Source: a virus
DNA length: 22,118 nt
IMG/VR virus record: IMGVR_UViG_3300044843_000329
Span: 1-22,118 of that record
Reading direction: 5' to 3' (one strand)
Shown in pieces: positions 12,507 to 17,425 of this stretch. Below the pieces are notes generated by a model. The model was not told the origin of the DNA and did no database searches. It saw nothing but the letters and a program-made list of their open reading frames with translations. The stretch's first letter is position 1; the number at the start of each line of letters is the position of its first letter. Made by a program: the position numbers and the translations under genes.

Positions 12507-12941
12507 TTAAACATCATTACAGAACATGGCCTTTTCAGCGGCTCGGCGCTTGACTAGGCCATTTAGCTTTTGACCTCCGGCATACACCCACTTATCAAAC
12601 TCATGGGAAGCAGCATTCTTCTTACCTTCCCTTAAAAGCTTATACATAGTGCTCTTTTTAAAGGCTCCTATGCCTATATTGTATATAAAACATACAAGGG
12701 CATCAAATTCATACTGCTTTAGCTTGTTTTCAAATAGATTGGTAAGCTCTAAGCCTATATCTAGGACGTGGGCCATTAATAGGTAATCGGCTGTCCTTTG
12801 CGTTATAGTGAGCCCAAATTGAATGCCTTTGCCTGTGGTACCCCATCCTATGGTCCATACCCCAGCAGAGTCCTGGTAAGCTTTTAAACGGCAAGATTCA
12901 AACCTTTTAATTAGGTCTATAGCCCTTTCGGAAGGAATCAT
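12507..12941 (-). CDS. GH24 lysozyme endolysin (T4 type)
   Basis: A 144-aa muramidase cutting the N-acetylmuramic acid to N-acetylglucosamine bond in peptidoglycan. The T4 lysozyme triad spacing is present: E15 (KRFESC), D24 (YQDSAG) and T30 (VWTIGWGTT). The C-terminal segment (VYAGGQKLNGLVKRRAAEKAMF) is typical of the family. It has no signal peptide or anchor, so it depends on the holin encoded just upstream. The two genes overlap as ATGA. Last gene of the leftward late operon. Confidence 0.96.
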   Translation of the reverse strand: MIPSERAIDLIKRFESCRLKAYQDSAGVWTIGWGTTGKGIQFGLTITQRTADYLLMAHVLDIGLELTNLFENKLKQYEFDALVCFIYNIGIGAFKKSTMYKLLREGKKNAASHEFDKWVYAGGQKLNGLVKRRAAEKAMFCNDV

Positions 12942-13315
12942 TTTTTATCTGATTGATTGAGCTTGTCTATGAGCAAGTGAATTATGGACATGCCAGAGAT
13001 ACGCTCAATATTCTCCATTACACTTTTAAGCTCGGTAAGTCCTATAAAACCGGCTAAAACTTTGACAATAGGAACCGCATCTCCTGTCATATATTGCTCG
13101 GTAAGGAACCCTAGCATAATGACGGCCTCATACACAGTCGTTTTAATGATTGTGCGCTTAAGTCCCGAAGAGGTGATCCTCTTCTTCTCCTTTCTAGCCG
13201 CCATTATGCCTGAAATCAAATCCACCACAGTAAGCACCATTACGGTGATTAGTGTAGCCTTAATGGGCATAAACACCATTGCTATAGAAGCTAAGAATGC
13301 TGTAAACTTTTGCAT
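12938..13315 (-). CDS. holin, toxin-secretion/phage-lysis family
   Basis: A 125-aa membrane protein resembling the phage_holin_4 family. Hydrophobic helices lie near residues 5-30 and 65-95. The family-like segments are VVDLISGIMAARKEKKRITS, GLKRTIIKT and the C-terminal NELKS-like ELKSVMENIERISG. It should form the membrane lesion that releases the lysozyme. Its start overlaps the stop of the adhesin gene (TAATG) and its end overlaps the lysozyme start, so the adhesin-holin-lysozyme set is translationally coupled. Confidence 0.9.
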   Translation of the reverse strand: MQKFTAFLASIAMVFMPIKATLITVMVLTVVDLISGIMAARKEKKRITSSGLKRTIIKTTVYEAVIMLGFLTEQYMTGDAVPIVKVLAGFIGLTELKSVMENIERISGMSIIHLLIDKLNQSDKK

Positions 13316-14164: not shown

Positions 14165-14602
14165 TTAGTATCCTAGGGCGTAAGTACCGTAATAGCTTGT
14201 ACCATCATAAAATAGATTTATAATATCTATCTTACCAGTAGTATTAGAAAGGGTAGGAGCCCCCGCTGCACCCCATTTTACGCTTACTGGGAACGTAATA
14301 GTTCCAGGAGTAGCGCCCTGTACAATTTTGAGCAAATATGCTCCACCGGTGACAGGATTAGAGAGGGTGAGGACAAGAGGGCCTGCTGCATTAATAGTAA
14401 CTTGTTGGACAGGTCCGTTTGCAAAGTCTAAAGTAAAGTTGGCAGCTTTTGTGCCAGCATCGTATAATTGCGGAGTAAGGTTATAGTTTTGTGTGGGAAA
14501 TCCGCTTAGAGTTCCGGTAAGAGCATCGTATACAGAGTTTTGTGTAGGTGCTCTGTTGATAATACCGTTATTTATTTGGTCTTGGGGTTTGATAAATGAC
14601 AT
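14165..14602 (-). CDS. tail fibre or fibre-tip structural protein
   Basis: A 145-aa beta-rich protein (QQVTINAAGPLVLTLSNPV, then YLLKIVQG) with a C-terminal segment IDIINLFYDGTSYYGTYALGY typical of small phage fibre head domains. It lies between the long repeat fibre and the adhesin, so it probably joins or caps them. The Shine-Dalgarno is weak, and a strong hairpin lies just upstream. Confidence 0.7.
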   Translation of the reverse strand: MSFIKPQDQINNGIINRAPTQNSVYDALTGTLSGFPTQNYNLTPQLYDAGTKAANFTLDFANGPVQQVTINAAGPLVLTLSNPVTGGAYLLKIVQGATPGTITFPVSVKWGAAGAPTLSNTTGKIDIINLFYDGTSYYGTYALGY

Positions 14603-14665: not shown

Positions 14666-17062
14666 TTAGATGATGAACCAATTTGTTCCGTTAGAATAAA
14701 TCATTACTGATTCATAAGGAACTACGATTAAGTAAGAGGCTTCTCCATCAATAAATTGTCCAGCTGGTGGAACAATCGCTATTGGGTTAGAAGAGCTTGC
14801 TTGACCGGATTCATCTTTGACGATGAACATGCGTCCAGAAGCCATAGTTACAGCGGATGGTAACGAGATGGTTTTTCCACCAGTTACCGAAGTTACGCCT
14901 ACGATATGGTTCTGTATTGCTATTGTCATGCCAGAAGAAGTACCCTGATAAGGGACTCTTTGACTTCGACCAAATATGATACCCAAAGCTGGGTTACCAT
15001 TGATCATAGTCTGACCGCCTGCAGTAAACGCCATTGAAGACGAGAACGCAACGGGACCAGTCATAGAAGAGGTACCATCTAGCTTTAATCGAGCATTATC
15101 AGCAGCATCAATGTAAGACTTTGCAGCGCTTACGCTCATTGCTTGATCTGTTTGAGATCCAGCACTTGAGTTAACTACTGCAGCTGTCTTTGCACGAGCA
15201 TCTGTGAAGAACAGTTTTGAACCTTCAGCAAGATCTGTACTTGACTTTCCAGAGAAAGCAGTATTAAATCTAGCTTGAGTGTAATACAGATTTGTTCCTT
15301 CAGCTAAATTGGTAGTCGTTTTGCTTGCAAAAAGACCATCAATATTGCTTTGAAGTGTAGAATCTGCAGACTGTAGCAAGGACACTTTGCCATCTACATA
15401 CGATTTAGTAGTAGGATCGGCTTCCAATACATCCAAACGTCCATCCAACGCATTATCTGCGCTGTTTACGTACGCTTTAGTGACTGGATCGACTTCTAAT
15501 ACGTCTAATCGTAAGTCAAGAGCACTGTCACCAGCTTGGCGATCAGATACTTCTTGTGCTAATGCAGCATTGTTACTTGTAACATAGCCAGCAAATGCAC
15601 TGTCATTAGAGGTGTCAACACTGTTAATTAAACTGACGATTTCGGCGAAAGAATCCTTATCGGCTTCAGAAGCAGATAGGATTGCGTCGATTCGACCTTT
15701 TTCAGTGTTTACTTGTCCTTGTAGATCAGATACTTCACCATCAACATAAGTTTTAGAGACAGGATCTAACTCAAGAACATCCAAACGCCCGTCAAGAGCG
15801 GATTGGATACCATCTACATATGCCTTGGTAGTAGGATCTTGTTCGAGCACATCGAGGCGTCCGTCTAACAGCCCTTCAGCTGCCATCGCACGTGACTCTT
15901 CTGCTTCGATCATTCCTTCTACACTTTGAATTGCAGATTGACGATCAGAGATTTCTTGTGTAATTTGTCCTTGAAGTCCGCTTACTTCTCCATCCACATA
16001 GGATTTTGTAGTAGGGTCTTGCTCAAGGATGTCAAGTCGGCCATCAAGAAGACCTTCTGCAGCCATAGCGCGTACTTCTTCAGCACTAACTGCGCTTTGT
16101 CTGTCAGAAATTTCCTGAGTTATTTGTCCTTGGAGATCTAAAACTTCCGCATCAACGTATGCTTTAGTCGTAGGATCTTGTTCCAGAACGTCTAAGCGTC
16201 CATCGAGCAAGCCTTCTGCGGCCATAGCGCGTGATTCCTCACCGCTAACTGCAGATTGTCTGTCAAGGATTTCTTGGCTGATTTGGCCTTGTAAATCGCT
16301 CACTTCGCCATCTACGTAGGTCTTGGACACTGGGTCCAATTCCAAAACGTCGATTCTAACGTCAAGAGCTGAGATTTCTCCGTCTACATAAGCTTTAGTA
16401 GTCTCGTCTTGCTCTAAGATGTCCAATCTGGAATCTAAAGAAGACTGTACTCCATCAACGTATGTCTTTGTGACAGGATCAGCTTCTAAATCGCTGATTC
16501 TGCTACTTAAAGCAGAGTCGGCGCTTTGACGTGCAAGCTCTTCTGCAGTTACAGCAGAAATTCTAGCACTAGCTTCACCGCTTACGGATGAATCTACATA
16601 AGATTTAGTGACAGGGTCAGCTTCAAGTACGTCGATGCGAGCATCAAGCGCACTTACAGCAGACTGTCGATCAGCAATTTCCTGATCAACTTTGTCGTCC
16701 ATTGCTCCGATTTGGTTTGCAATGGTAGCAGCAAAGTTAGCATCTCCACCTAAAGCATCAGACAGCTCTTTCAAGGTGTCTAATACCGCAGGAGCAGAGT
16801 TTACTAACGCTGCAATCCGTTGATCTGCGTAGTCCATTGCATCTTGCTTGGCCTTACTGATAGATCCGACTCCGGATCCTTCAATAACGTCTAAGCGCAA
16901 TTGCATTGCACTGTCAGCAGACTGACGGGAAGACTGTTCACTGCTGATGCTTAAGCTCAGAGAGTTAAGATCAGACTGAACAGCTCCTTTGGCTCTTTGT
17001 GATGTAAAGAAAAGTTGGCTAGAGCCTTCAACCAACTTATCTGTATTTCTAATAAATGCCAT
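14666..17062 (-). CDS. long repeat-containing tail fibre
   Basis: A 798-aa fibre. Residues about 140-560 hold ten copies of a motif LExDPxTKxYVD, several with the longer unit DLQGQITQEISDRQSA and AAEGLLDGRLDVL, consistent with a trimeric coiled coil/beta shaft. Fibre repeats of the type LAEGTNLYYTQAR occur twice near residues 585-625, with a diverged copy at the N terminus (LVEGSSQLFFTSQRA) that may attach to the virion. The last 60 residues (FIVKDESG, then YLIVVPYESVMIYSNG and NWFII) form a head domain also present in the 116-aa protein upstream. AAGGAAT precedes the ATG. Confidence 0.88.
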   Translation of the reverse strand: MAFIRNTDKLVEGSSQLFFTSQRAKGAVQSDLNSLSLSISSEQSSRQSADSAMQLRLDVIEGSGVGSISKAKQDAMDYADQRIAALVNSAPAVLDTLKELSDALGGDANFAATIANQIGAMDDKVDQEIADRQSAVSALDARIDVLEADPVTKSYVDSSVSGEASARISAVTAEELARQSADSALSSRISDLEADPVTKTYVDGVQSSLDSRLDILEQDETTKAYVDGEISALDVRIDVLELDPVSKTYVDGEVSDLQGQISQEILDRQSAVSGEESRAMAAEGLLDGRLDVLEQDPTTKAYVDAEVLDLQGQITQEISDRQSAVSAEEVRAMAAEGLLDGRLDILEQDPTTKSYVDGEVSGLQGQITQEISDRQSAIQSVEGMIEAEESRAMAAEGLLDGRLDVLEQDPTTKAYVDGIQSALDGRLDVLELDPVSKTYVDGEVSDLQGQVNTEKGRIDAILSASEADKDSFAEIVSLINSVDTSNDSAFAGYVTSNNAALAQEVSDRQAGDSALDLRLDVLEVDPVTKAYVNSADNALDGRLDVLEADPTTKSYVDGKVSLLQSADSTLQSNIDGLFASKTTTNLAEGTNLYYTQARFNTAFSGKSSTDLAEGSKLFFTDARAKTAAVVNSSAGSQTDQAMSVSAAKSYIDAADNARLKLDGTSSMTGPVAFSSSMAFTAGGQTMINGNPALGIIFGRSQRVPYQGTSSGMTIAIQNHIVGVTSVTGGKTISLPSAVTMASGRMFIVKDESGQASSSNPIAIVPPAGQFIDGEASYLIVVPYESVMIYSNGTNWFII
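15387..16632 (-). repeat. ten-copy protein repeat array inside the fibre gene
   Basis: Ten units centred on LExDPxTKxYVD, spaced irregularly from 24 to about 92 residues. The three longest central units are nearly identical in protein, but their DNA differs at many synonymous positions, so this is a degenerate repeat at DNA level. Confidence 0.85.
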
Positions 17063-17074
17063 TTAGGCTATTCC

Positions 17075-17425
17075 TTAAATAATATACCAAGCACCCACGC
17101 CATCACTAACCACAGTGATAGCTTCGTAGTTGACTACGAGGGTGTACCCCAAGGCAGCGCCATCTAACTGTTCACTACCTGAAGGGGCTATAGTGATATT
17201 TCTAACACTGCAATTGCCACCTTCATCTTTAATAACAAATACTTTTCCATTGCCAGCTTCAGCAGCTAATGGAAGAGTGATAGTGATTGCACCGCCTGGG
17301 ACGGAAGAATCCACTCCGATATAGTAATCGGAAGGCGTAGGCGAGTACGATCCCGTCACTTCGATGCGGTTGATAATAGACGATCCAGGTCCATTCTGTG
17401 CAGCGTATCGTACAATCGTACCCAT
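17075..17425 (-). CDS. small virion protein sharing the fibre head domain
   Basis: A 116-aa beta-rich protein. Its second half (FVIKDEGG, NITIAPSG, YTLVVNYEAITVVSDG and AWYII) matches the C terminus of the 798-aa fibre encoded next to it, while the fibre shaft is absent. It may be a cap, a collar, or a short fibre assembled with the long one. AGGAG precedes the ATG. Confidence 0.72.
   Translation of the reverse strand: MGTIVRYAAQNGPGSSIINRIEVTGSYSPTPSDYYIGVDSSVPGGAITITLPLAAEAGNGKVFVIKDEGGNCSVRNITIAPSGSEQLDGAALGYTLVVNYEAITVVSDGVGAWYII

Follow-up and report, generated by a model that had tools for sequence, protein, structure and literature searches.

Why do short units that recur along one viral protein with only a few residue changes differ so widely in their DNA? 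The preliminary description of this locus offered two answers, namely old duplications held by selection on the protein, or selection for synonymous change that prevents recombinational loss of the repeats. The window analyzed here is the whole of an IMG/VR virus record, 22,118 bases long. All repeats are carried by a single minus-strand open reading frame of 798 aa (Table 1). Its product is a phage tail fibre by sequence similarity to annotated fibre and tail proteins, and the gene sits among virion and lysis genes. The tail and tail-fibre PHROGs phrog_1197, 7032, 8713 and 2631, together with others, match the protein with E values of 1e-16 to 1e-9, mostly within residues 65–140, and phrog_30158, of unknown function, matches it in five stretches. 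Sequence matches in the PDB are to the phage fibres 9d93 gp4 and 6v8i gp68, at alignment-profile positions 72–124. The N-terminal part (residues 1–137) contains the stretch LVNSAPxVLDTLKELSDALGGD, which is conserved in the alignment of relatives. A terminase large subunit (10–1431), a phage lysozyme (12507–12941) and a holin (12938–13315) are encoded on the same strand as the fibre; the record also encodes a glycine-rich protein, DNA polymerase A, a Clp-type protease and a calcineurin-like phosphoesterase. No close isolate phage is found among the matches listed, where the best terminase match is at 25% (Pelagibacter phage) and the eight DNA polymerase matches listed are at about 24%. In the genome collection, three metagenome-assembled contigs match the fibre, one at 77% over residues 56–121 (Proteobacteria bin) and the other two at 29% and 43% identity in the best segment; from none of them do we claim a host.

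Table 1. Position of the fibre gene and its parts in the window
Feature	Position	Strand	Basis or remark
Fibre gene with repeats	14666..17062	-	Open reading frame; PHROG and PDB sequence matches
N-terminal part, residues 1–137	16652..17062	-	PHROG/PDB matches; conserved in the alignment of relatives
Unit 1, residues 138–158	16589..16651	-	21-aa core
Unit 2, residues 184–204	16451..16513	-	21-aa core
Unit 3, residues 208–228	16379..16441	-	21-aa core
Unit 4, residues 232–252	16307..16369	-	21-aa core
Unit 5, residues 285–305	16148..16210	-	First of three AAEGLLDGRLD-LEQDPTTK copies
Unit 6, residues 338–358	15989..16051	-	DNA repeat family and core
Unit 7, residues 398–418	15809..15871	-	DNA repeat family and core
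Unit 8, residues 422–442	15737..15799	-	21-aa core
Unit 9, residues 514–534	15461..15523	-	21-aa core
Unit 10, residues 538–558	15389..15451	-	Joint of the shaft with the exchangeable tip
Switch interval, gene nt 736–1010	16053..16327	-	L005/L006: L007-like 5' part, window-like 3' part
C-terminal tip, residues 559–798	14666..15388	-	Replaced in L007

The C-terminal tip presumably binds the receptor. Its residues 717–788 have a faint likeness to the T4 gp9/gp10 family; the Pfam match (T4_gp9_10_N, E 0.039) falls short of the cut-off set for that family. Foldseek with the predicted model, which is of low confidence, returns T4 gp9 and TSP4 with no matched range given, and two of the six best rows have an rmsd above 30, which is meaningless. 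Residues 711–798 of the model have pLDDT of 61–85. The adjoining 116-aa gene (17075–17425, minus strand) is a paralogue of the fibre C-terminal domain with 43% identity to residues 717–798, and both are weakly similar to the T4 gp9/gp10 N-terminal family. Another small minus-strand gene (14165–14602) has tail-fibre PHROG matches. By eye, its product resembles an ANFxI...ANGPxQ...NPVTGGxYxLKLVQ module inside the L090, L095 and L114 fibres, so that the module would be a free-standing gene in the window and a built-in part of those three fibres.

The motif L-E-x-D-[PE]-[TV]-[TS]-K-x-Y-V-[DN] occurs ten times in the protein, starting at residues 146, 192, 216, 240, 293, 346, 406, 430, 522 and 546. 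The interval first proposed for the repeats, 15387–16632, contains all ten copies, and the three stretches singled out there as examples are units 7, 6 and 5, in which the protein is kept and the synonymous sites have diverged. Units 5 and 6, compared over 41 aa, show 22.75 synonymous differences at 30.1 synonymous sites (pS 0.76, pN 0.12). For the 45 pairs of 21-aa cores (Nei–Gojobori) the mean pS is 0.81 and the mean pN is 0.24; dS is uncomputable in 30 pairs, and in the remaining 15 dN/dS is about 0.08–0.37. The comparison of dN with dS between units thus bears out the preliminary description, as the paralogues combine saturated synonymous sites with low dN, the pattern of ancient repeats under purifying selection. 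DNA repeat families of at least 41 nt have 61–80% identity to the reference copy, and a tandem-repeat finder reports a single array at 72%.

The saturation is complete at the level of codons. Where two units have the same amino acid, the codon is identical at 280 of 672 positions (0.417). A shuffle of synonymous codons confined to this gene yields 0.406 (sd 0.022, z 0.48), a null drawn from the codon usage of the phage gives 0.405, and segments chosen without any unit definition give 0.408 against a null of 0.409. Since codon identity equals that of the shuffle, the "scrambled" DNA is randomized within codon usage and is not different beyond random. The DNA of the units retains no memory of the duplications, and strikingly scrambled DNA repeats can reflect saturation alone.

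The relatives show how old this state is. The whole-protein search gave 179 relatives, of which the best 80 were kept, and a shaft-only search gave 23 loci. Five relatives are close: L003 and L004, with 4 and 5 base differences, the mosaics L005 and L006, and the more divergent L007. Ten motifs are present in each of the window, L003, L004, L005 and L007. The truncated L006 spans nine units, eight found by motif search and one masked by an ambiguous codon. Copy number, which the preliminary description proposed to compare, is therefore conserved together with unit order in these five relatives over the sequence available for each. Between the window and L007, orthologous units have a dS of 0.22 and a dN of 0.03. 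At the DNA level, a unit is 0.79–1.00 identical to the L007 unit in the same position and 0.49–0.76 identical to other units; this retained positional identity rules out homogenization of the units by concerted evolution. Orthologous units are more alike than paralogous units for L007 and L087, and only partly so in L096_98 and L091. Shaft dN/dS is 0.12 for the window and L007, 0.10 for L087 and L089 and 0.18 for L093 and L095, while L091 and L092 have no amino-acid changes in the shaft at a dS of 0.012. Three clustered substitutions at 15977–15980 (gene nt 1083–1086) are private to the window; they change VSDLQ to VSGLQ and are absent from L003–L007.

Next after the five close relatives is the group L087–L099, 44–85% identical in the best segment. 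In L087 the first unit spacings, 46-24-24-53-53, are those of the window and are followed by an extra 35-aa step. Nine of the ten window units have reciprocal best partners in L087, all collinear (window units 1, 2, 3, 4, 6, 7, 8, 9 and 10 with L087 units 1, 2, 3, 4, 5, 8, 9, 12 and 14). Codon identity is 0.478 in these partner units, 0.392 in other pairs and 0.427 in the aligned N-terminus. The collinear partners place the duplications before the split of the two lineages, at which synonymous sites are themselves nearly saturated, and saturation makes this age a lower bound only. Among L087, L096_98 and L091, clean collinearity is seen in L087 alone. In L096_98 and L091 only some units, mainly 5–8, line up in order, and several window units, above all 1–4, have best partners that break the order or serve more than one unit; conservation of the entire shaft is therefore not universal. 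L096 and L098 are parts of one contig, 3300005805_000007 (38,352 bases), in which about 99 bases at one end recur at the other, within the fibre gene. The overlap points to a relative assembled completely, as a circle of about 38 kb, compared with 22 kb for the window record.

Recent copies of units are not found in the near relatives tested, where the longest exact repeat is 14 nt in the window, 17 nt in L007 and 12 nt in L087. Recent duplication does appear in more distant fibres, namely Synechococcus phage S-CAM7 (L083), L100, L209 and one L104 gene, so in-place duplication also occurs. The S-CAM7 gene (L083:2878-5217) encodes a fibre-like hypothetical protein with a 73-nt exact internal run, and the protein resembles the window shaft at 35% over pieces of residues 153–586. 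L114:6001-9159 has 14 motif copies and an N-terminus similar to that of the window; its paralogues are unsaturated, with codon identity up to 0.57, and its gain of units via a large in-gene duplication is still traceable. Repeats in an antisense open reading frame of L100 are a by-product of the sense-strand repeats and were disregarded. Across eleven distinct family proteins, some of them truncated, the number of motif copies is 3–14, a range that includes the ten of the window. Comparison of codon identity with a synonymous shuffle separates old repeats, as in the window family, from the younger ones of S-CAM7, L100, L114 and L209.

The relatives also differ by whole pieces of the gene. L005 is identical to L007 from its start (about gene nt 232) through nt 1010, and from nt 826 onward its sole differences from the window are at three bases private to the window. 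L006 is a mosaic like L005, with the base of the window present already at nt 825. On these alignments, L005 and L006 appear to be the products of an in-register switch within the shaft; all mosaics described here, that of L091 and L094 included, come from metagenomic contigs and may partly have arisen as chimeras during assembly, as the ambiguous bases of L006 in this region caution. Window and L007 begin to diverge at gene nt of about 1650–1680, inside unit 10. In blocks of 30 nt, their identity is 0.80 in the block that starts at gene nt 1621 but 0.30 in the one that starts at nt 1681, and it returns to 98.6% over the last ~30 bases of the gene. For residues 571–798, dS is 1.88 and dN is 1.03, indicating that the tip has been replaced. 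L094 and L091 agree at 93% over a 183-nt flank and at 98.7% over a 1,587-nt flank, and between these flanks lie inserts of 471 and 291 nt with no in-register similarity. The left joint is at LEQDPTTK and the right joint is near LDGRLD. The L094 insert aligns with the window at 75% over 312 columns (gene nt 823–1129) and covers units 5 and 6. These cases suggest that pieces of shaft and tip swap between phages, with the conserved shaft motifs acting as in-frame joints for tips and cassettes, and we infer that exchange is the usual mode of change. A piece exchanged at a motif joint need not match its neighbours in DNA.

The same cassette and tip replacements, with their joints at the motif, could mean that this lineage never passed through tandem duplication of the units and that its shaft was built piecemeal from diverged phages. 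The variable unit number among relatives, and the lack of DNA-similar units in the window, L007 and L087, fit such an assembly. We nevertheless find it rather unlikely. The similarity of units 5 and 6, at the low pN they show over 41 aa, implies common descent somewhere, the collinear partners in L087 indicate a shaft mostly inherited whole, and other fibres have younger duplications within the gene.

A further reading is that the DNA is scrambled because selection made it so. Long shared runs would lose units through recombination or slippage, and selection would then spread synonymous differences that limit runs of about 10–12 nt and longer. The arrangement of codons would leave the units with fewer and shorter exact runs in common than chance gives and would guard against recombination reducing their number, with tips and cassettes still exchanged in register between phages. 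We consider both this natural codon scrambling and such an arrangement of codons unlikely, and the chance-level codon identity in the window speaks against them. Their main support is a deficit of shared runs summed over eight family members, with the near-duplicates L007, L089, L092 and L097 excluded. Repeated 10-mers number 349 against 459 expected (P 0.0013, a statistic chosen post hoc), runs of at least 12 nt between paralogues 32 against 51 (P 0.0013) and 12-mers 113 against 176 (P 0.006). Codon identity, summed likewise, falls a little below expectation (P 0.018), chiefly through L091 (P 0.004). Summed runs of at least 6 and at least 9 nt are not significantly low (P 0.25 and 0.13), nor are those of at least 15 nt (10 against 15, P 0.10). 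Kinship of L093 with L095 and of L091 with L094 means that the eight members are not independent, and several statistics were applied to them. Individually, repeated 10-mers are depleted in L087 (27 against 73 expected, P 0.0003), L093 (36 against 60, P 0.025) and L095 (12 against 33, P 0.009). The deficit of the window itself is weak (34 against 51, P 0.08), as is that of L091 (P 0.09). It is not found in L090, L094 and L096_98, three of the eight members, nor in L007. In contrast, 35 non-repeat control open reading frames show an excess of 10-mers under the same null (174 against 134, ratio 1.30). Assembly bias is an unlikely cause of the missing 10–12-mers, as longer exact repeats are present in other contigs of the same collection and assembler words exceed 12.

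An allele-swap test, in which synonymous alleles are exchanged between orthologues, does not depend on codon usage. Shaft chimeras hold more 10-mers than the real genes for the window and L007 (P 0.047) and for L093 and L095 (P 0.012), while L087 and L089 give no signal (P 0.75) and L091 and L092 have only three informative codons. With whole genes, the P values are 0.095 (window–L007), 0.24 (L091–L092) and 0.028 (L094–L097). The chimera controls are near or slightly above zero (L024, 15 pairs, z -1.8 to 1.8; L040, 11 pairs, z -1.4 to 2.0), and these two control clusters themselves exceed the shuffle null in 10-mers. Under a rule set in advance, the deficit was not reproduced in the new members: replication failed in three of four new clusters, L100, L114 and L209, all with large excesses, and L112 agreed by half (10-mers 14 against 28, P 0.08; runs 3 against 3.5, P 0.53). 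The duplications in L100, L114 and L209 are younger and make a poor test of old repeats, yet the stated prediction failed. The distance between units has no effect on the deficit over the eight members (near 82/111, mid 158/204, far 139/175). In the window, pairs of units no more than 65 aa apart have a shorter mean longest run (7.3 against 9.3 nt, P 0.015), an effect of proximity that did not generalize across the eight. Shaft dS against L007 is not clearly raised (residues 130–460, dS 0.218 and dN 0.031; N-terminus, dS 0.192 and dN 0.027). For the whole unit span dS is 0.280 against 0.180, and this span includes residues 461–570 (dS 0.648, dN 0.117) beside the swapped tip. The modest shortage of exact repeats seen in some family members is no more than suggestive. 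On the whole, the saturated synonymous sites look ordinary, and avoidance of similar DNA stretches in some relatives is hinted at only faintly. Of the two answers offered at the outset, old duplications held by selection on the protein are upheld by saturation, purifying selection and orthology; selection for synonymous change is not established.

The AlphaFold monomer of the fibre, computed from a six-row alignment, has a mean pLDDT of 54 and a pTM of 0.22. At this low confidence it shows long helices that are broken at or beside the second Asp position in all ten motifs; four further breaks lie ahead of residue 580. In the eleven family proteins, the distinct unit spacings of 70 aa or less are 24, 35, 42, 46, 53, 59, 60, 61 and 68. 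Seven of the eight between 25 and 70 aa fit 24+7a+11b, a rule noticed post hoc, and the exception is 61 in L112. Insertion of complete coiled-coil heptads and hendecads would produce such spacings. The shaft is probably a segmented coiled coil and the fibre probably homotrimeric, a structural reading that draws on motif resemblance, the post hoc spacing rule and the low-confidence monomer model. The similarity of the units could also arise by convergence, with many coiled-coil segments driven to one short motif and no duplication at all; the coiled-coil arithmetic of the spacings fits this reading, and TKxYVD-like motifs do recur in the otherwise different fibre L100. Identity around units 5, 6 and 7 covers about 40 residues, far past the motif, and makes convergence highly improbable.

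Taken together, we think it likely that the duplications are old, that the protein is kept by purifying selection, that the fibre is a probable segmented coiled-coil trimer and that its pieces are exchanged at motif joints. Each unit of the long fibre would be a helix ending in LExDPxTKxYVD, which would break and then restart the helix. Since the ancient duplications, purifying selection has acted on the protein while synonymous sites have moved to random codon usage, and each unit has evolved as its own lineage with no homogenization. In-register recombination among related phages would continue, and the tip and a mid-shaft cassette would have been replaced from other phages at the conserved-motif joints.

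Several known systems resemble parts of this fibre. T4 fibritin is a segmented coiled coil. Its C-terminal domain is described as having been swapped in the past (PMC3797505). Alpha/beta coiled coils are homotrimers whose helices are interrupted by the short TK-containing beta-layers MATKDD and VYTKAE, and the majority of their known structures are viral, mainly from phages (PMC4786415); the likeness of DP[TV]TKxYVD in the window to these beta-layers is in motif only. A narrow search found no literature on synonymous divergence between phage fibre repeats. In engineered genes, codon diversification of repeats prevents recombination (PMC12365220), and codon scrambling is also mentioned elsewhere (PMC10094428). 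In the engineered genes as in the window, repeats of one protein sequence are encoded with differing codons, but the engineered scrambling is designed, whereas for the window random drift suffices. Should the run deficit prove real, it would amount to a natural version of this design and would document selection against losing units. Direct repeats in mitochondrial DNA have been compared with randomized sequences, and negative selection is reported there to be lacking (PMC4417187). The question and the null are similar to ours; the genome is different, and part of the phage family has a modest deficit. For repeats within proteins, Persi, Wolf and Koonin (2016) describe paralogous repeats that typically diverge, in dN/dS, an order of magnitude faster than orthologous ones (PMC5120217), in a main text where the words "virus" and "phage" are absent. 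As in the repeats described there, each window unit is individually conserved between orthologues. Unlike them, the window units show little acceleration, with paralogous dN/dS of about 0.08–0.37 at saturated dS against 0.10–0.18 for three orthologous pairs. Old repeats under purifying selection are already known, and the shaft analyzed here is a clear-cut case from a phage, with its synonymous sites fully saturated.
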